A stretch of 27,543 nucleotides of DNA. Origin: a virus. The stretch covers positions 1 through 27,543 of the IMG/VR virus record IMGVR_UViG_3300009329_000265, one strand, 5' to 3'. Every line of letters begins with the position of its first letter. Positions within the stretch are counted from its first letter, which is position 1. Below are positions 15,311-27,543 of the stretch, piece by piece. The position numbers and the translations under genes were made by a program. The notes below the pieces were generated by a model, which was not told where the DNA came from, made no database searches, and saw nothing but the letters and a program-made list of their open reading frames with translations.

Positions 15311-16147
15311 TCAGGTCCTTGCTATGGTGGCGATTTCGTCATCCGAGTTATAAGTCAAAGCCAAGACTGCAACCGTGGTACCGCCAGCTCCGCCGGTTTT
15401 ATAAGTCACTGTTTCGATTTCACCCTCGCCATCGCCGGAAGATACATACGTCAAAGCGATATAATCGTAAGCTGGGATTTCAAAGCCGATTAACTTTCTC
15501 AACTCGGTTAAAATGGCGCCGTCACTTCCGCCCCCGACATAAACATTCCCAGCCCGATAAAATTTCTCGCCATCTTCCGTTACCAGCCTGACAGGTATTG
15601 CTTCTTTAGGCTTTAAGTTCTTAATGAAACTCTTGAAAATAGTTGTCTTGACCTGCTTAAAAATACTCTCGTTTGAATCTTTAGCGAATTTGAACAATTT
15701 CTTAAAATCGAACTCTTTATACCAGAGAGGCTTTTTGATGCTTACTTCCTTGGGGTGTTTTTCGGGTTTTATCTCTTTTAAATTGGAAACCCTTATCTCC
15801 TTGGGGTGTTCATGCTTGAAATCTTCCGCATTGGATATTCTTACCTCTCCGGCAGGGGGCGGGAAATTGCTGACAAACACCTTAAGCTCTTTGCTGAATG
15901 CTTGCTGGTATTTGTCCAATGTTTCTGCTAATCCGCTTATCTCATTCTTGATATCTTTAAATGCCTTGGAGTCCGGCTGTCCTTCTTTTATCAGTACATA
16001 AACCTTGCTGATGATATTGACGATATCTTTCTGCCTATCCAAAGACTGAAGCAGAAAAATATTCCTCTCCAAATTATCGTCCTGTGTTTCAGTGCCTAAT
16101 AATTTGCTGATTTTGTTTCTTTCTAAAAGGGCTTGCTTTTTATCCAT
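15311..16147 (-). CDS. coiled-coil and beta-domain protein, possible head fibre base
   Basis: 278-aa protein in three parts. Residues 1-95 are helical and coiled-coil-like. Residues 100-140 hold three imperfect repeats with a Glu-Val/Ile-x-Ile/Val core (EVRISNAEDF, KEIRVSNLKEI, KEVSIKKPLW), each of the last two preceded by HP. The C-terminal part, from about 184, is EAIPVRLVTEDGEKFY and then DYIALTYVSSG, EIETVTYKTGG and TTVAVLALTYNSDDEI. Repeats and end modules of this kind are frequent in phage fibre- or base-type proteins. The start overlaps the portal stop, so it is translated together with the portal. A part that links a fibre to the head or portal is a reasonable guess. Confidence 0.72.
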   Translation of the reverse strand: MDKKQALLERNKISKLLGTETQDDNLERNIFLLQSLDRQKDIVNIISKVYVLIKEGQPDSKAFKDIKNEISGLAETLDKYQQAFSKELKVFVSNFPPPAGEVRISNAEDFKHEHPKEIRVSNLKEIKPEKHPKEVSIKKPLWYKEFDFKKLFKFAKDSNESIFKQVKTTIFKSFIKNLKPKEAIPVRLVTEDGEKFYRAGNVYVGGGSDGAILTELRKLIGFEIPAYDYIALTYVSSGDGEGEIETVTYKTGGAGGTTVAVLALTYNSDDEIATIART

Positions 16148-17885
16148 TGATCAAAACCTTCTCCAGTTTGGTTTTTATATTAGTCAGTTCTTCTTTTAAA
16201 GTGCTGTTGTCTTTTCCCATCTTCGCAAGCTCGCCGCTCAATTTCTCGTTCTTCCTCGCAACTTCTTCGGCGTCTTTCAATATCTCTCTAACCTCTTGTT
16301 CTTGTTTCGTCTGTTCTTTTTTTTCTTCTTCATCTTCTGCGGGAGTTTTTGAGTTGGTGGTTGTTTCCGGAAGATCAAGCTCTTTTCGTTTCTGTTCTTC
16401 TCTAGCCCTTTGCTCTAAAATCTCTTCCCAGTCCTTGCCTTGTCCCGCCGCCTCGTCAGCCAAGCTTGAAATGTTTCCTGCGATAGCTTCTTTGGATGCC
16501 TTAACCTCTTTAAGCGGATCCACCCAGGACCAGCCAGGAGCTATCCATCTCGCCCTAACCCAATCAAGCCGCTTCCCATAAAAGTTATTAGCTTTCAATT
16601 CCCCTCTTAAATAAGCCTCTTCCAAAAGCATCTCCCAAACAGGCTGGCAGAGCTTTTGAGCCAACCATTCCTGCCTGACCTTGAAATATCTTCTGGCCTC
16701 AAGAAGAGCTGCCCTGGCGCTTGAATAATTTGTCTTTGAAAAGTCTTTTGCAACCAGCTCGTAAGGAAGGCCCAGTGCCGCAGATATTGCCTTTAAGATC
16801 CTGTCGACAAACGGCTCAAATGTCGCGCTTGGCCTCTGCGGATTAAATGATGTGATAGATTCACCAGGCATAAGGTGTTTAATCATCCCAGGCTCTAATG
16901 ACTCTACCATCTGCCCGGATGCGTTCTTCTCATATGCAGAATTAACTGCTACATCCATCGATGACTCCGAAGTTATAAAAAGCGAGAAGCATGCCGCAAT
17001 ACGTGCGGCAACAAGCTCTGCCTCGGCATACTCGGCTAAATCTTTGAAATAAGTCAACACGGGAGCAAAGAAGGGAACACCTCTGGTCTGGCCGGACCGT
17101 GAGACATAATACAAATGAAAAATATTCTTTCTGCCATATTCGCCTTTAGCCTGAATTTCTACGTACTGCCTTGCTTCTTCTCTTGTCCTATGGTTGATAT
17201 CTCCAGGATGTGTCTTTTGAATGAAATAAGAAATCGGCTCGCCCTTTTCGCCAATCTTTACGCCAGACCTGATTGATTTATCGCTTCTTTTATCGGATGG
17301 CGTGTTAAGCCTGTCCGACTCTATCAACTGCAGGGCCAATGAATACGGCCTGCTTTTATCTTTCAACATCAATGGAACGATTATCGCCTCGCCGTTTTCA
17401 AGGATCTGCCTATCCACCAGCTGTTGAATTTCGTAGAAGTCCATACGTTCTCCCGCATCGGCATACGGCGACCAACGTTTCCATATCCTCTCGGTTTTTT
17501 TCTGGAAGTTATTTGCTGATTTCTCGCTTATGCCAAGGGAATCCTTATCCATCCTGCACTGAGGCCTGATGCCCGTTCCGATGACATTCGTGGTCATAGT
17601 AGAAGTAATCCCTGCGGCGTGGGCGTCATTTCTATTTAGATCACGGCTACGCTCCCGAATATCAGCTAACTCAGGAAGCAGGTCATGGTCTGCCGAACCC
17701 CCTCCCGGAAGCCAGGAAGAACGCAAACGATTTCTGCTCGCTCCTTTGTAAGAGCCGAACTTATGCGAAACATTGATTGCCTCCCGATACATCCTTCGCT
17801 TAAACCCAGCCTTGGGGGAGAAAAACGAAATGACGTTGTCTATTCCGGATGACAACTTTTCCGATATTTTCTTTTTATTTTTCAT
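16140..17885 (-). CDS. portal protein (lambda B family)
   Basis: 581-aa portal of the lambda gpB type, forming the dodecameric ring at one capsid vertex through which DNA passes. Recognisable parts are RSRDLNRNDAHAAGITSTM near residue 90, IRPQ after it, the stem-region stretch YFKDLAEYAEAELVAARIAACF, and FSKTNYSSARAALLEARRYFKVRQEW further on. The last 100 residues are Glu/Lys-rich and predicted coiled coil. The start overlaps the gpW-like stop (ATGA). Position and sequence agree fully. Confidence 0.93.
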   Translation of the reverse strand: MKNKKKISEKLSSGIDNVISFFSPKAGFKRRMYREAINVSHKFGSYKGASRNRLRSSWLPGGGSADHDLLPELADIRERSRDLNRNDAHAAGITSTMTTNVIGTGIRPQCRMDKDSLGISEKSANNFQKKTERIWKRWSPYADAGERMDFYEIQQLVDRQILENGEAIIVPLMLKDKSRPYSLALQLIESDRLNTPSDKRSDKSIRSGVKIGEKGEPISYFIQKTHPGDINHRTREEARQYVEIQAKGEYGRKNIFHLYYVSRSGQTRGVPFFAPVLTYFKDLAEYAEAELVAARIAACFSLFITSESSMDVAVNSAYEKNASGQMVESLEPGMIKHLMPGESITSFNPQRPSATFEPFVDRILKAISAALGLPYELVAKDFSKTNYSSARAALLEARRYFKVRQEWLAQKLCQPVWEMLLEEAYLRGELKANNFYGKRLDWVRARWIAPGWSWVDPLKEVKASKEAIAGNISSLADEAAGQGKDWEEILEQRAREEQKRKELDLPETTTNSKTPAEDEEEKKEQTKQEQEVREILKDAEEVARKNEKLSGELAKMGKDNSTLKEELTNIKTKLEKVLING

Positions 17886-18097
17886 GATGGATTATCGAAC
17901 TCTGCGTATGTTGTGGTATCCTTTGATCCTGCGATTTCTTTTCGCAATTGGTCGCGTAACTTTATCAATTCGCTAATACTGATATATTGAAGGTTTCTTC
18001 CGCCGATAGAGTAGGACTGCACGGCTCCGCCTGTCATTCTTGCGTTTATGGCAGTTTCAAGATTATCGAGCATTTCTTGTTTTGAAGGCGCGCTCAC
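17882..18097 (-). CDS. gpW-like head-tail joining protein
   Basis: 71-aa protein directly before the portal gene, as lambda W. It has an N-terminal helix (KQEMLDNLETAINARMTGG), a short beta hairpin (VQSYSIGGRNLQYI) and a second helix (ISELIKLRDQLRKEIAG), the known gpW fold. It would bind the portal after packaging and stop DNA leakage. The start is GTG with Shine-Dalgarno AAAGGAGA. It is separated from the upstream gene by 178 bases with a promoter and terminator. Confidence 0.85.
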   Translation of the reverse strand: MSAPSKQEMLDNLETAINARMTGGAVQSYSIGGRNLQYISISELIKLRDQLRKEIAGSKDTTTYAEFDNPS

Positions 18098-18115
18098 AAC
18101 GATCTCCTTTTATAT

Positions 18116-18174
18116 CCCAATAAAAAAGCCCATATCTCGCTCGTGCACGAGTACGGGCTTTTTTGACTATTGGG
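18116..18174 (-). terminator. strong terminator-like hairpin inside the late operon
   Basis: The outer arms CCCAATA and TATTGGG enclose AAAAAGCCC and GGGCTTTTT arms, and the inner loop holds the palindrome CTCGTGCACGAG. On the minus strand the GC part is followed by TTTTTT. The symmetric A/T tracts make it able to work in both directions. It stands between the terminase module and gpW, so it should stop or control late transcription. Confidence 0.8.
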
Positions 18175-18220
18175 CGCGCTTAAGAGCTGATCAGGCCCTG
18201 GCGCAAAAATCTATAATCCT

Positions 18221-18249
18221 ATATTACTTAAAATAATCCTTCGTTTCAA
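18221..18249 (-). promoter_or_regulatory. predicted sigma70-type promoter upstream of the hairpin
   Basis: The minus strand reads TTGAAA (18249-18244), a 17-base spacer and TAATAT (18226-18221). This is close to the housekeeping consensus with ideal spacing. Transcription would begin near 18214 and meet the hairpin ending at 18116, giving an RNA of about 100 bases unless it reads through into gpW. Confidence 0.6.
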
Positions 18250-18275
18250 ATAGTCGTTACTACAAAATGGAAAAT

Positions 18276-18518
18276 CTATTTTTCATAATCTTTCTCGACA
18301 GACTTAAAATTATATCTGCACTCTCTGCAGTAGTGATAACGAATTGGAGGATGGGAGCCATAACATTTTACATTTTTGCTGTTGCACTTTGGGCATCGTA
18401 AAGGAATAAATACGACTCCGTAGCTTTGGCTGTCTTTTGTCGATTTTTCTGGTTGCTCTTGCTTAAAGTCAGTGTCATTTCTTAGCCAATTGCTTTTTTT
18501 CTCAAGCCATTTGCCCAT
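18276..18518 (-). CDS. small zinc-ribbon protein
   Basis: 80-aa protein whose ATG touches the large terminase stop (TAAATG). It has four cysteines as two CxxC pairs: RCPKCNSKNVKCYG and then HYCRECRYNFKS, with RYHYC between. The arrangement recalls small phage zinc proteins such as P2 Ogr and Mu Com and transposon InsA-type ribbons, which bind nucleic acid. The N-terminal 35 residues are charged and probably disordered. It could be a late regulator acting on the promoter just downstream, or an aid to packaging. Neither is shown by the sequence. Confidence 0.75.
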   Translation of the reverse strand: MGKWLEKKSNWLRNDTDFKQEQPEKSTKDSQSYGVVFIPLRCPKCNSKNVKCYGSHPPIRYHYCRECRYNFKSVEKDYEK

Positions 18519-20399
18519 TTAAAGCCAGCTTCCTTCACGTTTTTTGATCCAATTCCCACGGCTAGTATCTTGATCGACTATCCGTTGGTGCACTTTGACT
18601 GACTCGTCTTTCCTGATATTCAAAGCCCTGATAATGTCTGCCGCGGCGACTGCATAGACTTCTGCGTCAAGATAGTGAATTGCCATCGCTGTTTTTTTCT
18701 TCTGCCAAACCTCCTTGGCACGGCCGGTGTTTCTGTTTCGCACCAAAACCTTATGCTCTGAGGTAAACTGGTTTAAATATTCATCGGTTGGATTCCTGAA
18801 GATATGCCATTTATGAGGATCTCGAGTCGCTACCAAGCGATTGATTTTATCCTTATACTGACTGACGTTCAAATTCCATAAAACCAAACCGCTTTTGATA
18901 ACACTGCCGGTTCTTGAGTTAATATCTATCTTCGAAGCCCTATAGAAGCGGCCGCCTGCAAGTTCTTCCTGTCCCTTGATGGCTTTTGTTCTATCCGACC
19001 ACTGACGACAGAATCTATACACCTCATCGGTGCGGTACCCAGAATCGATACAGCTCATGTATACCGGCAAAGTCTCGTTGTTCGATAACCGTTTGTATTC
19101 CGTATTGAAGAGTACATCTACGATATCTTCCCAATACTCGACACGATCGGCCCTGATCAACCAAGACTCTTCATAATAACCCCAGCCGCGGATCACATAA
19201 TAAAAATGGTCTTTCTGGACGTCTACCCCAGCAGTCAATACAATCACGTCATCCGGCACAATACCTTGGTCGTACTCGCGTGAGAGAACTCTTATCTTAT
19301 CGACAGTGGTTTCTTCGATCTTTTCTTCCCAGACCTCGGCAAGCCATGAATTGACAAAGTTCATCAAAAGCTCGATATAATCTTTTGACTTCATAAACTC
19401 GCTAGCGATATCGCTCCATCTAAGCCATGGGGAATAGAGGGAATTAATCCAGAACCCCCTGTGCTTGCTTCTGATAATATTTCCCGAGACGCTTCCATCA
19501 TCATCAAGCTCGGCGTCTTCCGGCACCCATTTCCCTCGCAACAATATTTTGTTTTTGTGATAATCTTTTATGTGCTTGTTGCAGTGATAGCATTCATACC
19601 AGGCAAGGCGTTCGTTTTTGATACGCTCGGCTGATTTCTCGCTCTTAGGCCACTTGATCTGGTTAAACACCAAAACCTGATATTTGCCGCAATGAGGGCA
19701 GGGTACATAAAAGCGGCTCCTGTCCGATTTCTCATACTCCCTAAAGATATAACCATCCCTTGTGGTCGGCGTGGATACTTTGATCGTCTTTCTGTTCCAA
19801 AATGTCTTCTGACGTTCGCTGGCAAGTTTTATCGGATCAGCTTCCCGGCCCGAGAACTTGGGATATTTGTCGATCTCATCCAAAAAAAGATAACGGATAG
19901 GCCGAGAGGCTAAGTCAGCAGGCGAGTTCGATCCGGCAAAATACAAAATCATCCTGTCTAAATGGTATTCCAGCCTCGTTATGTCATCCGAAAGCCTGGG
20001 AAGATGCTGACGCAGGGCGTAAGAACCTTGAATCATAGGCAGAACCCGGTTGCAGGAAACACTCCTTGCGTCACTCTCGCGCGGCAAGACCACAAGTGTA
20101 GGCCCCGGATCCTGATCAATGATAAACCCAAGCATATTAAACATGGCCTCGGTCTTACCAACCTGGGAAGCGGCCATAACGCTTATTTCTTCGACAAAAG
20201 GATCGGTGAAAGCATCCATGATGCCTCCCAAATAAGGCGTCCTTTGAGTCTTCCACCGGCCCGGTTCAGCTGAAGTAATCGGATTAAGATAACGAAAAAG
20301 ATCAGCCCACTGGCTGACTGTTATCTTCTCCGGTGGTTTCCACGTCTGCTTCTCCTCGGGTGTCCAGATTTTCCTGTCTTGTTTCCTCACTATCATCAT
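18519..20399 (-). CDS. terminase large subunit (lambda gpA family)
   Basis: 626-aa packaging motor and nuclease. Walker A is AASQVGKTE (residues 76-84) and Walker B is LFLDEID (171-177). A zinc-knuckle-like pair CPHC and CYHC lies at 234-237 and 270-273, a common insertion in this family. The nuclease domain shows AGVDVQKD (Asp393) and CIDSGY (Asp452). The start is uncertain: the frame also allows a TTG at 20408 with GAGG too close to it, so I prefer the ATG at 20399. Either way it overlaps the small subunit gene by about 100 bases, which suggests coupled translation. Confidence 0.92.
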   Translation of the reverse strand: MMIVRKQDRKIWTPEEKQTWKPPEKITVSQWADLFRYLNPITSAEPGRWKTQRTPYLGGIMDAFTDPFVEEISVMAASQVGKTEAMFNMLGFIIDQDPGPTLVVLPRESDARSVSCNRVLPMIQGSYALRQHLPRLSDDITRLEYHLDRMILYFAGSNSPADLASRPIRYLFLDEIDKYPKFSGREADPIKLASERQKTFWNRKTIKVSTPTTRDGYIFREYEKSDRSRFYVPCPHCGKYQVLVFNQIKWPKSEKSAERIKNERLAWYECYHCNKHIKDYHKNKILLRGKWVPEDAELDDDGSVSGNIIRSKHRGFWINSLYSPWLRWSDIASEFMKSKDYIELLMNFVNSWLAEVWEEKIEETTVDKIRVLSREYDQGIVPDDVIVLTAGVDVQKDHFYYVIRGWGYYEESWLIRADRVEYWEDIVDVLFNTEYKRLSNNETLPVYMSCIDSGYRTDEVYRFCRQWSDRTKAIKGQEELAGGRFYRASKIDINSRTGSVIKSGLVLWNLNVSQYKDKINRLVATRDPHKWHIFRNPTDEYLNQFTSEHKVLVRNRNTGRAKEVWQKKKTAMAIHYLDAEVYAVAAADIIRALNIRKDESVKVHQRIVDQDTSRGNWIKKREGSWL

Positions 20400-20961
20400 C
20401 TCTGGCAAATTCCTCTATAATCTCTATTATTGCCTCATATAACTCGGCTTCGATTTCCCTGGGTTCTTTCATCGCCAGAACCGGGGCAAGCCTCGTTGGT
20501 AGGGCAAGGAAGGATCTTTTTATCGCAACGATCCTTGCGATTCGACCTTTTTCCACTTCATCACGGGGCAACAACTCGGCGGTTGCTTTCTTGACCTCCA
20601 ACTCAAGCAAGGTTGCTTTATATTTCAGGATCTTCGTATTCCAATAAGCCCTGTCTTCGGCCTGGTCTACATTGCGCTGTTCATACCAGGCCTTGATTTC
20701 GTCAAGATCATAAAAGCCTTCCCTGGTAGCAGGCATACCGTCTTTTTTCCAACGCTGAACGGTCCTGTAGGCAACATCCATAACTTTGGCAACTTCTTCC
20801 ATTGTCTTGACAACCGCAGGGCCCAAGGGTTCTGCCTCGAATTGTTCAAGCTCCGCAATCTCCTGACTAGACAAAGGTTTTCTGCTCTGCATCTTCTCGA
20901 TCAAATAAAGATGCCTTTTCTTGCGAGCAATCTCTGCCAGGTTTTGTTTCTTTTCTGTCAC
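20302..20961 (-). CDS. terminase small subunit (Nu1-like)
   Basis: 219-aa DNA-recognition subunit. Residues about 55-92 form a winged helix-turn-helix of the Nu1/MerR-like kind (MEEVAKVMDVAYRTVQRWKKDG, then FYDLDEIKAWY). The following helices (KATLLELEVKKATAELLPRDEVEKG and RSFLALPTRLAPVLA) are typical for this family. The C-terminal end is acidic. I chose the GTG at 20961 because it overlaps the methyltransferase stop (GTGA) and is preceded by GGAGGAAGG. The open frame continues 15 codons upstream without such a site. Confidence 0.85.
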   Translation of the reverse strand: MTEKKQNLAEIARKKRHLYLIEKMQSRKPLSSQEIAELEQFEAEPLGPAVVKTMEEVAKVMDVAYRTVQRWKKDGMPATREGFYDLDEIKAWYEQRNVDQAEDRAYWNTKILKYKATLLELEVKKATAELLPRDEVEKGRIARIVAIKRSFLALPTRLAPVLAMKEPREIEAELYEAIIEIIEEFARDDDSEETRQENLDTRGEADVETTGEDNSQPVG

Positions 20962-22262
20962 TGACCTTCCTCCAAAATGGCCTTTTTGCCTGAGAACTCT
21001 TCCCATCGCTTGACCGTAACATCACAAAATATAGGTTCGATCTCCATCGCAAAAACACGCCTGTTAAGACGCTCCCCGGCAATAATCTGCGAGCCTGAAC
21101 CGCAAAATGGCTCATAACAGATATCGCCCGGCGCAGTATGCACTCTCATGGGAATAGCGAACACTTCCGTGGGTTTAACTGTTGGGTGTTTAATTCCGGT
21201 GTTTCTTTTTTTGCCTTCCCAATCCAGCTCCCAGATATCCGAATAATATTCGGGTTTAGTTGGATCACCTGACCTTAATAAATCTATCATCCAGACGCTT
21301 CCGATGGATTTATCTTTCGGCCTGTAAGGCGGTTTTTGTCCTTTTATCCACATCAAAAGGCACGGCTCGTGTCGCCAGGAGTAAAAAGAATAAGTGAGTA
21401 TGGCGCAGGGCTTTACCCAGATAATCTGCTGATGAAGCAACAACTTCAATTCATCACAGACTTCTTCGATTATTGCTTTGCGCTTTGAAGCATGCCATAG
21501 ATATAGGGCGGTGTTTTCTTTTACATATTGAAGTCCCACTTTATAAAACAATTTTATAAATTTCTTTGCATCGGGAATATCTACTTCATGGTATACATCC
21601 GACCAGTCCTTGCCGCCTGTCGGCCTGTCAGCTCCTGTGTAATCAACACAATAGGGTGGATCCGTTGCAAACAGACTTGCCTTATTACCAGCCATAAGCC
21701 TTGCCACATCCTCTTCGCAAGTTGCATCACCACACAAAAGCCGGTGTTCTCCCAGAAGCCACAAATCGCCTTTCTTGGTAATAGGCTCCTCCGGCGGCTC
21801 CGGGATATCATCGGGCAATGTTTTGCCAGCTCCTGTGTTTTCTTCTTCGAACTCCGAAACTTCATCCCGCAGTTCCTTCATGCGAAGCGCAAGATAATCA
21901 TCCGAAGCCTCAGTGCGTAATTTCTCTAAAAGAGGAATAATGGCCTGTGTCCATGATCCTACGATCTCCTGAGAGTTCAGTGTCACGTTCATAGCCATTT
22001 CAGAAACCTCATCAAGATCCACCATGATTGCAGTAACATTCTCGACACCCTCTTGCTGTAAAATCTTATACCGCTGGTGCCCTGATATAATCCGCATGTT
22101 GCGCTTATTAACCACCAAGAGATCCACCAACCCGAACTTCTCAAGTGAGTGCCGCAGGCCCGCAAGGGCCCCATCCGAGATCTCCCGTGGATTGTAGGGT
22201 GCTGGTTTTAAATCGGACATTTTAACTTCCAAAATGTCCGGTTTTACGTTGATTTTTGCCAT
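20958..22262 (-). CDS. ParB-domain DNA methyltransferase (N6-adenine or N4-cytosine)
   Basis: 434-aa fusion. Residues about 10-100 are a ParB/Srx-type domain with PYNPRE and ISGHQRYK. Residues 165-430 are an amino-methyltransferase with motif IV DPPY (201-204) placed before the SAM-binding motif EPFCGSGS (384-391), the beta-class order. Such enzymes are common just upstream of phage terminases and may protect phage DNA from restriction or mark packaging sites. No partner restriction gene is seen, so it is an orphan methylase. Shine-Dalgarno AAAAGGAGGC precedes the ATG. Confidence 0.9.
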   Translation of the reverse strand: MAKINVKPDILEVKMSDLKPAPYNPREISDGALAGLRHSLEKFGLVDLLVVNKRNMRIISGHQRYKILQQEGVENVTAIMVDLDEVSEMAMNVTLNSQEIVGSWTQAIIPLLEKLRTEASDDYLALRMKELRDEVSEFEEENTGAGKTLPDDIPEPPEEPITKKGDLWLLGEHRLLCGDATCEEDVARLMAGNKASLFATDPPYCVDYTGADRPTGGKDWSDVYHEVDIPDAKKFIKLFYKVGLQYVKENTALYLWHASKRKAIIEEVCDELKLLLHQQIIWVKPCAILTYSFYSWRHEPCLLMWIKGQKPPYRPKDKSIGSVWMIDLLRSGDPTKPEYYSDIWELDWEGKKRNTGIKHPTVKPTEVFAIPMRVHTAPGDICYEPFCGSGSQIIAGERLNRRVFAMEIEPIFCDVTVKRWEEFSGKKAILEEGQ

Positions 22263-25797: not shown

Positions 25798-27543
25798 ATG
25801 ATAAAGCACAACAAAAAAGCGGAGAAAAAACGATACATAATCTATACTCGCTGTTCCACCGACGACCAGGCGCAGGGCGACTTTACCACCCTTGACGCCC
25901 AGGCTTATCACTGCAAAAACATGCTGGACGCATTCGGGCATGAGCTCGCCGATATCGGAAAAAAAGGCGTGGTAATAGACGACGGTTATTCCGGCAAAGA
26001 CCTTAATCGTCCCGGCATCCAATCGATTCTCGACCATATAAACAAAAAGCGGTCGTTCGACGGAATTATCTTCTTCCGCCTCGACCGCTTAACCCGCAAT
26101 ACCCGGGACCTTTATTGGCTTATTGACTTATTCAGGGCCAAAGAGATCCATTTCGTATCGGTAAGAGAAAATCTCGACAGCTCAACCGCCATAGGCAGGG
26201 TAGTAATCGGCATACTCGGAATTTTGTCAGCTTTTGAACGGGAGCTCACCGGCGAGCGCGTGAAAGCTTCCTGCATAGCCAGGGTAAGGCAGGGTAAATG
26301 GGTGGGAGGCAACGTGCCTTTCGGCTATAAATTAATACCCAACGGCGATCCATTGCCGAACGGAAGACAGCCCCACAAAATCATCATCGATCCCGAAATA
26401 GGGCGTAAGATACGTTTCATCTGGGAAATGGCCGCGGACAACAAATCGCTTTATGATATCGCCAATGAATTGATACGCCGGGAAATAAAAACACCGCGCA
26501 AAAAAGTATGGCGCAAACAAACCGTGGCCTGGCTCATAAAAAATCCTTTCCATAAAGGCTACATAAAATACAGCGATGAACTTCACAAAGGCACGCATCC
26601 CGCTCTTGTGGATGAGAAACTCTGGGAGAAAGCAAATAAGATGCTGAGCATAAAAATGCCCGGGCACCGTTTCACCAAACGGCCCCGGGAATATATATAT
26701 CTTCTGGCGGGCATGCTCAAGTGCGGTAAATGCGGCAGTCATTATGTCTGCGAAAGCGGCAACGGCCATTCCGAAAAATTCTATTATTATGTATGTGGAA
26801 GGTCCAAACAGAAATTAGGCTGCGATGTATCTCGATTCTCTGCCAGAGGATTCGATAACGCATTGATCGATTATTTCAAACGGGCATCCAGGGACCAGGA
26901 GATAATCATAAAAGCAATCGGCGAGGCGATTCTGGATTCTCAGGTCAAATTGGAGCATCTCGAAAAACTAATCAAACCTCTGCAGAAGAAATTGGCAGGC
27001 GCCCGGGAAAAAGCGAATAAGCTTCTTGATCTGGCGATGAACGGCAAAGTATCGCAGGGCAAGACATACAAGGATAAGATGACGAAACTAGATGATGAGA
27101 TATTCAGGCTGGAAGACGAGCTGGAAAAACTGCAGGCGAAAAAGAGCGTTGCCCAGATAGCCGCGCATTCCGGAGAATTCCTGCACTCGAACCTCAAGCT
27201 CGCCATGCAATATATCGAACAGGCCCCTCCGGACGCGCAGAAGGCCCTGATAAGAGCCCTTATCAAAGAAATAATAGTTTATGATGACCAGATAGAGATC
27301 AAGATGTATATCGACCAGCCCGCCATGGAAAGTCTCTCCTGCACACTGCCAGCCGCAGAGCCCGGAAAACCTCCCAAAAATGAAAAACGCCCTACAGATA
27401 ACTGTAAGGCGTTAGTCCCCACTGCATCAAGCGGGTTTGGTTCGCCTGAGCGTCAAGGTTGGCTGCCCCGTCTGGATTCGAACCAGAAACAATTGATCCA
27501 GAGTCAATCGTGTTACCAATTACACCACAGGGCATTGCATTAG
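25798..27543 (+). CDS. large serine recombinase (phage integrase), C-terminal tail probably host-derived
   Basis: Site-specific recombinase for integration and excision. The catalytic Ser20 is in YTRCSTDDQ. The resolvase domain (to about 155) includes FRLDRLTR at 93-100 and FERELTGERVKA. The recombinase domain covers about 170-285 (GGNVPFGYK, KNPFHKGYIKYS). A zinc ribbon uses Cys309, Cys312, Cys333 and Cys342. A coiled coil spans about 380-450, followed by the conserved end IVYDDQIEIKMYID near 505. From residue 530 on the frame reads through a terminator hairpin and then antisense through a tRNA-Gln gene (WLPRLDSNQ), so the last 50 residues are probably an accident of the integration junction. 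It is the only phage gene on the plus strand. Confidence 0.92.
   Translation: MIKHNKKAEKKRYIIYTRCSTDDQAQGDFTTLDAQAYHCKNMLDAFGHELADIGKKGVVIDDGYSGKDLNRPGIQSILDHINKKRSFDGIIFFRLDRLTRNTRDLYWLIDLFRAKEIHFVSVRENLDSSTAIGRVVIGILGILSAFERELTGERVKASCIARVRQGKWVGGNVPFGYKLIPNGDPLPNGRQPHKIIIDPEIGRKIRFIWEMAADNKSLYDIANELIRREIKTPRKKVWRKQTVAWLIKNPFHKGYIKYSDELHKGTHPALVDEKLWEKANKMLSIKMPGHRFTKRPREYIYLLAGMLKCGKCGSHYVCESGNGHSEKFYYYVCGRSKQKLGCDVSRFSARGFDNALIDYFKRASRDQEIIIKAIGEAILDSQVKLEHLEKLIKPLQKKLAGAREKANKLLDLAMNGKVSQGKTYKDKMTKLDDEIFRLEDELEKLQAKKSVAQIAAHSGEFLHSNLKLAMQYIEQAPPDAQKALIRALIKEIIVYDDQIEIKMYIDQPAMESLSCTLPAAEPGKPPKNEKRPTDNCKALVPTASSGFGSPERQGWLPRLDSNQKQLIQSQSCYQLHHRALH
27386..27413 (-). terminator. rho-independent terminator of tRNA-Gln
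   Basis: Minus strand: AACGCC and TACAG arms pair with CTGTA and GGCGTT around an ATAA-type loop with one mismatch, followed by TTT and a further T run. It lies 46 bases downstream of the tRNA 3' end, inside the recombinase frame. Confidence 0.75.
27460..27534 (-). tRNA. tRNA-Gln (anticodon CTG)
   Basis: 75-base minus-strand tRNA with 7-bp acceptor stem TGCCCTG/CGGGGCA, D arm GTGTAATTGGTAACAC, anticodon stem ATTGA/TCAAT with loop CTCTGGA (anticodon CTG), T arm TCTGG-TTCGAAT-CCAGA, and an encoded GCCA end. It reads CAG codons. The coding strand is opposite to the recombinase, whose frame crosses the whole gene. Confidence 0.93.

Follow-up and report, generated by a model that had tools for sequence, protein, structure and literature searches.

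What lies in the gene-free interval between the terminase and gpW genes of this phage, and how might it govern the genes that follow? The window analysed here (the whole stretch of 27,543 nucleotides) comes from a phage assigned to Omnitrophota, a little-known bacterial phylum, and its late region is encoded on the minus strand (Table 1). An earlier note, made from the sequence alone, had described a promoter and a strong terminator hairpin in this interval, and had read them as the source of a stable RNA or as a controlled late promoter whose transcripts must pass the terminator to reach gpW and the portal gene. The second reading is the best supported: we put at roughly 60% the probability that the cassette is an attenuator, a leader that regulates the late structural operon, has an Ogr-like Zn-ribbon protein as its activator and releases an RNA of ~95 nt upon termination.

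Table 1. Features of the leader and of the adjoining late genes, with window positions and the basis of each assignment.
Feature	Position	Strand	Basis
Terminase large subunit, gpA type, upstream of the Zn-ribbon gene	18519-20408	-	PF05876, PF20454
Zn-ribbon protein, 80 aa, CPKC...RYHYCREC, probable promoter activator	18276-18518	-	ORF list
Dyad TTTCCA-TTTTG-TAGTAA, conserved CGAC after it; probable activator site, centre near -51	18257-18273	-	Spacing in relatives
Promoter: -35 TTGAAA, 17-nt spacer, -10 TAATAT; expected start near 18214	18221-18249	-	Scan and conservation
Hairpin H1, 7-nt loop CUGAUCA (18194-18188)	18176-18204	-	Folding, compensatory changes
Hairpin H2, intrinsic terminator: outer stem CCCAATA/TATTGGG, inner stem GCCCGTACTCG/CGAGATATGGGC, T tract	18116-18174	-	Folding, covariation, covariance model
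H2 tip, self-complementary, CTCGTGCACGAG	18140-18151	-	Tip comparison across relatives
gpW ribosome binding site (RBS) AAAGGAG	18104-18110	-	Sequence
gpW-like head-tail joining protein, GTG start, first gene past the leader	17882-18097	-	PHROG 118 head-tail adaptor 5.6e-10; PHROG 5774 4.3e-12
Lambda-type portal protein, next late-operon gene	16140-17885	-	PF05136, 1.2e-108

Both elements are real and strongly conserved, although their details differ from the first reading. The promoter TTGAAA-17-TAATAT is present at 18249-18221, but to call it near-consensus was generous, as it matches 9 of 12 consensus positions (5/6 in the -35 and 4/6 in the -10 hexamer), and a scan of the region returned 7 promoter-like sites as compared to 8.8 in shuffles. 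By itself the promoter does not exceed chance expectation, and its reality rests on conservation. The hairpin with its T tract is as strong as had been claimed: its stem spans 18158-18128 and is followed by six T residues at 18127-18122, while the flanking CCCAATA (18174-18168) and TATTGGG (18122-18116) pair with each other. Folding energies are -24.6 kcal/mol (z -5.1) for the 56-nt hairpin and -43.7 kcal/mol (z -5.3) for the 100-nt leader, so that the hairpins stand far above chance (z about -5). The ORF list places no gene between promoter and terminator and has a zinc-ribbon ORF immediately upstream, as noted earlier, that starts at the stop codon of the terminase large subunit gene. Exact copies of GGCGCGCT at 18087 and 18173 had been taken as the possible mark of an insertion; the copies exist, but the insertion is not borne out, since the copy at 18173 is the 3' arm of H1, that at 18087 encodes the gpW codons Ser-Ala-Pro, and relatives do not share the pair, which is coincidental. 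Hairpin H1, the self-complementary tip of H2 and the recurrence of the cassette in other phages and in satellites go beyond the earlier note. The CGAG at 18139-18136 repeats the 3' half of the tip. Elsewhere in the window, a tRNA-Gln gene (27460-27534, minus strand) lies within the 3' part of an open serine recombinase frame on the opposite strand (25798-27543, plus strand), and a ParB-type N-terminal domain fused to an N6/N4 DNA methyltransferase (20958-22262, minus strand) is encoded directly upstream of the terminase small subunit; a protein similar to this fusion is also found upstream of the terminase in L249 and L363.

To gather relatives, three proteins (gpW, the terminase and the Zn-ribbon protein) were used as queries against viral contigs, which yielded >150 loci, and GTDB genomes were scanned with the terminase to place prophages. 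Blastn against named phages gave no DNA-level match. Most prophages with this terminase belong to Omnitrophota genomes. Two of them (L319 and L320) lie in the complete genome of Candidatus Velamenicoccus archaeovorus; their H2 hairpins are nearly the same and their H1, dyad and promoter sequences differ. Approximately 60 non-redundant cassettes from Omnitrophota phages and prophages keep a single order upstream of gpW: Zn-ribbon gene, dyad, sigma-70-type promoter, H1, intrinsic terminator H2 and RBS. A covariance model (R1) built from the alignment scores the window's cassette at 88.5 bits (1.3e-23) and usually finds one strong copy per phage record. It matches 20 of 285 Omnitrophota genomes, although some of the weaker matches are ordinary terminators (L338, L340, L341, L343 and L347, host-genome matches scoring less than about 45 bits, were so judged by eye); in a control phylum there were two matches in 282 genomes, neither with a symmetric tip. 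A host origin of H2 was considered and rejected, as no additional good copy turned up in the host genomes of two prophage sets: in G002 there are only 3-mismatch matches, about as many as in the reversed control, and in G003 one decayed prophage copy. Phages with other terminases likewise have the H1-H2 pair with a symmetric tip, ahead of portal or scaffold/capsid genes (L325, L175, L179, L324 and L318, the last with two copies bearing two different tips), and in L362 it precedes a VirB4/TraC-like (T4SS-like) operon; the portal and head genes are named from matches and the scaffold and T4SS genes by eye. Its position before the head genes of unrelated phages and before this operon fits an operon leader.

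Upstream of the hairpins, the distance from the dyad centre to the start of the -10 hexamer is 39-42 nt in gpW-linked cassettes, although the letters of the dyad vary (TTACTA-N5-TAGTAA, TTACCA-N5-TGGTAA and TTCCTA-N5-TAGGAA in relatives); the -35 is a TTG-type hexamer and the spacing is mostly 16-17. An activator bound beside RNA polymerase would need such a fixed distance, near -51, which makes the dyad a probable activator site. The Zn-ribbon gene lies upstream of the cassette in most relatives' loci, and its product resembles P2 Ogr in the zinc motif and is probably the activator of this promoter. It matches no Pfam family above cut-off and gives no Ogr_Delta match up to E 10; alignment to the P2 Ogr profile with hhalign covers 37 columns at 27% identity with an E value of 0.001, but with a probability of 21%, a weak match. 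In two sets of loci (L061/L110 and L087-L089) H1 and H2 are missing and the dyad and promoter are kept directly before gpW, which argues that the promoter serves the operon and that H1-H2 is a separable module. Other layouts also occur. Members of a distant lineage (L062, L063, L141, L142 and L055) have two tandem dyads before gpW, and in the L062 group the terminator before gpW is a perfect 18-nt palindrome, GACAGTCAATTGACTGTC. L057, L058 and L060 have a palindrome before gpW (CCTTTGCGCAAAGG, CCCATGCGCATGGG) whose 3' half doubles as the 5' arm of the terminator stem, so that palindrome and terminator are mutually exclusive, a classic attenuator layout.

The RNA structure is conserved among the relatives. 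The consensus from an alignment of 44 sequences has 19 pairs; compensatory double changes occur at 14 of these, and G-U pairs are frequent, indicating that H1 and H2 are selected as RNA rather than as DNA. The outer stem of H2 includes bases past the T tract and covaries as well (GCCAATA/TATTGGC in L280, CCCAAA/TTTGGG in L281 and L282); as it can form only in read-through RNA, we argue that read-through is part of the function. The loops of H1 are self-complementary in the main group only (CUGAUCA, UUGGCCA), where a 6-nt palindrome lies inside a 7-nt loop, and other cassettes carry UCGCU. Each H1 or H2 loop is either self-complementary or without any complementarity, and the two do not form a mutually complementary pair. 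A known RNA family for the leader was rejected: nothing in the window except one tRNA exceeds the Rfam gathering threshold, and the best match in the cassette region, Thr_leader, reaches 20.8 bits against a threshold of 55.

The most unusual feature of the leader is the tip of H2, which is self-complementary over 10-12 nt, including the four central nucleotides expected to form an unpaired loop. The centre is self-complementary in 24 of 26 distinct tips, a number reached by 0 of 100,000 shuffles (maximum 11), and both central pairs show all four Watson-Crick combinations. One of the two exceptions (L033) is self-complementary with a wobble, and the other comes from satellites. The main set was gathered by the outer stem and T tract, independently of the palindrome; the most distant members (L167, L175, L179, L231, L362 and L363) were accepted partly for showing it, and dropping them leaves the result for the main set unchanged. 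A palindrome of at least 10 nt is absent from 105 other terminators found on these contigs, the sole exception lying at the same place in L062. In decayed prophage copies of MAG R3-B46 the symmetry is lost (CTTGTCACGAG, CTCGTGCACTAG), which argues that it is kept by selection and not by mutational bias; in that genome, contig C11 (L316, L317) holds several decayed cassettes, one without gpW and one followed by a Zn-ribbon-like coding sequence, and three intact copies lie elsewhere. Mapped onto the terminase (TerL) tree, the type of tip requires at least 29 changes and that of the H1 loop at least 10, and L132 and L134 have nearly identical TerL and different tips. Recombination between phages will account for part of the changes in both. 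A symmetric centre whose sequence is free to change is what pairing of identical RNA molecules requires, and from this we infer RNA-RNA pairing; we see no intramolecular reason for the symmetry, and homotypic pairing through the H2 tip is most likely what it reflects. Extended-duplex dimer energy was rejected as proof of such pairing, as nearest-neighbour energies lend it no support: in cofold calculations of homodimers, whose model does not cover kissing geometry, natural tips gain nothing consistent over non-palindromic ones.

The dyad-promoter-H1-H2 cassette also occurs in or beside integrated elements in five Omnitrophota genomes (L357-L361). The three examined in full (L357, L358 and L359) are ~5-7 kb long, lack head genes and encode a 76-aa ORF (DUF5659-like), a D5/P4-type primase-helicase and small ORFs, with a serine recombinase in the two whose end is covered. 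From this gene content they look like P4-like satellites of Omnitrophota, apparently undescribed. Their cassettes, which precede the replication region (primase), have lost the outer stem and are not followed by gpW; the next ORF of at least 65 aa starts 430-620 nt downstream, behind repeated sequence, and in two of the five the tip is no longer symmetric. L357 and L358 have two or three tandem dyad promoters, and type I restriction-modification-like genes are found close to L357, L358 and L359. The arrangement is reminiscent of P4, which has late promoters that respond to the activator of its helper; P4 delta and P2 ogr promote the late genes of both (PMC8628076).

In the mechanism that we propose, the Zn-ribbon protein would bind the dyad near -51 and activate the sigma-70-type promoter, as the fixed spacing and gene order suggest. 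Transcription would start near 18214, run through H1 and meet H2 after about 90-95 nt, where termination is predicted from the hairpin and T tract (the structure itself is shown by covariation). Terminated transcripts would form a small RNA of about 95 nt, whereas read-through transcripts would carry the RBS, so that gpW, portal and later genes are expressed. This reading of the cassette as a controlled late promoter draws on the fixed position of the promoter relative to the dyad, the conservation of the terminator and the variants that keep dyad and promoter without hairpins; of the earlier interpretation, it is this part that is best supported and the insertion that falls. The level of read-through may be set by a protein or RNA at H1, or by H2-tip pairing between RNA copies, and the symmetry of the tip makes pairing between leaders our leading idea for this control. 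A PHROG scan of window proteins turned up no antiterminator family, several small ORFs being without a family, and an RfaH-like factor was rejected, as three out of four Omnitrophota genomes examined encode just one NusG homologue and hence no obvious factor of this kind. A bolder version, to which we give low odds, is that the leader represents a new class of phage RNA which senses or counts its own copies: tip pairing would set termination in the structural operon, and the tip would be a recognition code, fast-diversifying because satellites and rival prophages have the same leader and could interfere through it.

Alternatively, the RNA itself could be the product, a discrete trans-acting small RNA of ~95 nt that forms a homodimer or oligomer (for packaging, in principle as with the pRNA of phi29, or as a regulator, for example), with gpW merely downstream. 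We consider this unlikely. A promoter, two hairpins and a terminator do make a complete RNA gene, a self-complementary tip would need an identical partner, and the satellites carry the cassette without gpW or any sizeable ORF close behind it, although there the region might serve as the leader of the primase gene instead. Against it, the RBS of a structural gene closely follows H2 in nearly all phages, the conserved and covarying outer stem spans past the T tract, so that read-through RNA matters too, and L061 and L087-L089 manage without H1-H2.

Even less probable, in our estimate, is an immunity device acting in trans, in which accumulated leader RNA would pair via the H2 tip with nascent leaders and force termination, keeping late genes off in prophages or competitors; satellites would thereby interfere with their helper, and helpers would escape by changing the tip. 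The fast turnover of tips in close relatives, exemplified by L132 and L134, would suit such a device, as would the presence of the cassette in satellites, and the CI RNA of P4 shows that a leader RNA can enforce termination in trans (PMC4825925). However, co-resident prophages share tips (both Ca. Velamenicoccus prophages have CCGTGCACGG, and CTCGTGCACGAG is found in every intact one of MAG R3-B46), and the dimer energies are again of no help.

A DNA packaging site is an unlikely reading of the palindrome, and a cos or other terminase site copied by satellites for their own packaging very improbable: gpA-type terminases make cos ends, the element adjoins the terminase and portal genes and is shared by satellites, and its two-fold symmetric 12-bp core would suit a dimeric nuclease, but wobble pairs and compensatory changes denote selection on RNA, the core sequence changes freely, L318 has two copies, the element is found before scaffold/capsid genes and a T4SS-type operon as well, and contig ends near it fall at differing positions. 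One of these (contig L059 starts 3 nt before gpW) had suggested a genome end at the hairpin; it is no evidence for cos, as the contig is 41.7 kb long without a TerL match and other contigs end elsewhere.

The regulated leader that we favour shares features with several known systems. In lambda, the late promoter pR' gives a short leader (6S RNA) that ends at the intrinsic terminator tR' before the late genes, which are reached through Q antitermination. The Omnitrophota leader likewise has a promoter, an intrinsic terminator within about 200 nt and then late genes, and a small terminated RNA is expected; it differs in its fixed dyad by a Zn-ribbon gene, its place between terminase and gpW, its two conserved hairpins with a self-complementary tip, and the failure to find a Q-like protein. 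With P2 Ogr and P4 Delta it shares a small phage zinc protein (CPxC...RYHxC...C...F..E), a dyad about 50 nt upstream of the start, at a fixed distance of ~-51 here as compared to near -55 in Ogr/Delta targets, and satellites with the same promoter type beside the primase. The Zn-ribbon protein differs, however, in having no Pfam Ogr match and a low profile probability (21%), the dyad of P2 late promoters has another sequence, and to our knowledge those promoters have no such attenuator. In the P4 CI RNA and Gifsy-1 IsrK, premature termination of a leader yields a small RNA and read-through an mRNA (PMC4825925), as proposed for the phage leader; CI RNA pairs antisense with separate seqA and seqC sites, whereas the Omnitrophota tip is complementary to itself. 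The pRNA of phi29, another phage RNA, is similar in size and has hairpin loops suited to pairing between molecules, but it joins two different complementary loops head to tail (PMC7357161), whereas the Omnitrophota tip is complementary only to itself and its tie to packaging consists of the neighbouring genes alone. A parallel to the tip itself is seen in homodimeric kissing loops such as the HIV-1 DIS: the H2 tip is kept self-complementary by compensatory change, and the main H1 loop of 7 nt also holds a 6-nt palindrome. The conserved flanking purines of the DIS (PMC7357161) are absent from the Omnitrophota leader, whose tip sits on a terminator hairpin and changes its sequence freely. Literature searches and Rfam yielded nothing like a terminator tip kept self-complementary under repeated replacement of its letters. 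The novelty lies in a leader RNA family that is conserved and mobile among phages and satellites of Omnitrophota. It marks P4-like satellites that appear to be undescribed, and it provides a handle on gene control in this phylum, whose molecular biology is almost unexplored. Attenuated late promoters are already known, whereas a self-complementary, letter-swapping terminator tip appears undescribed and points to pairing between copies of a phage leader RNA, which has rarely been proven in bacteria and is directly testable here.
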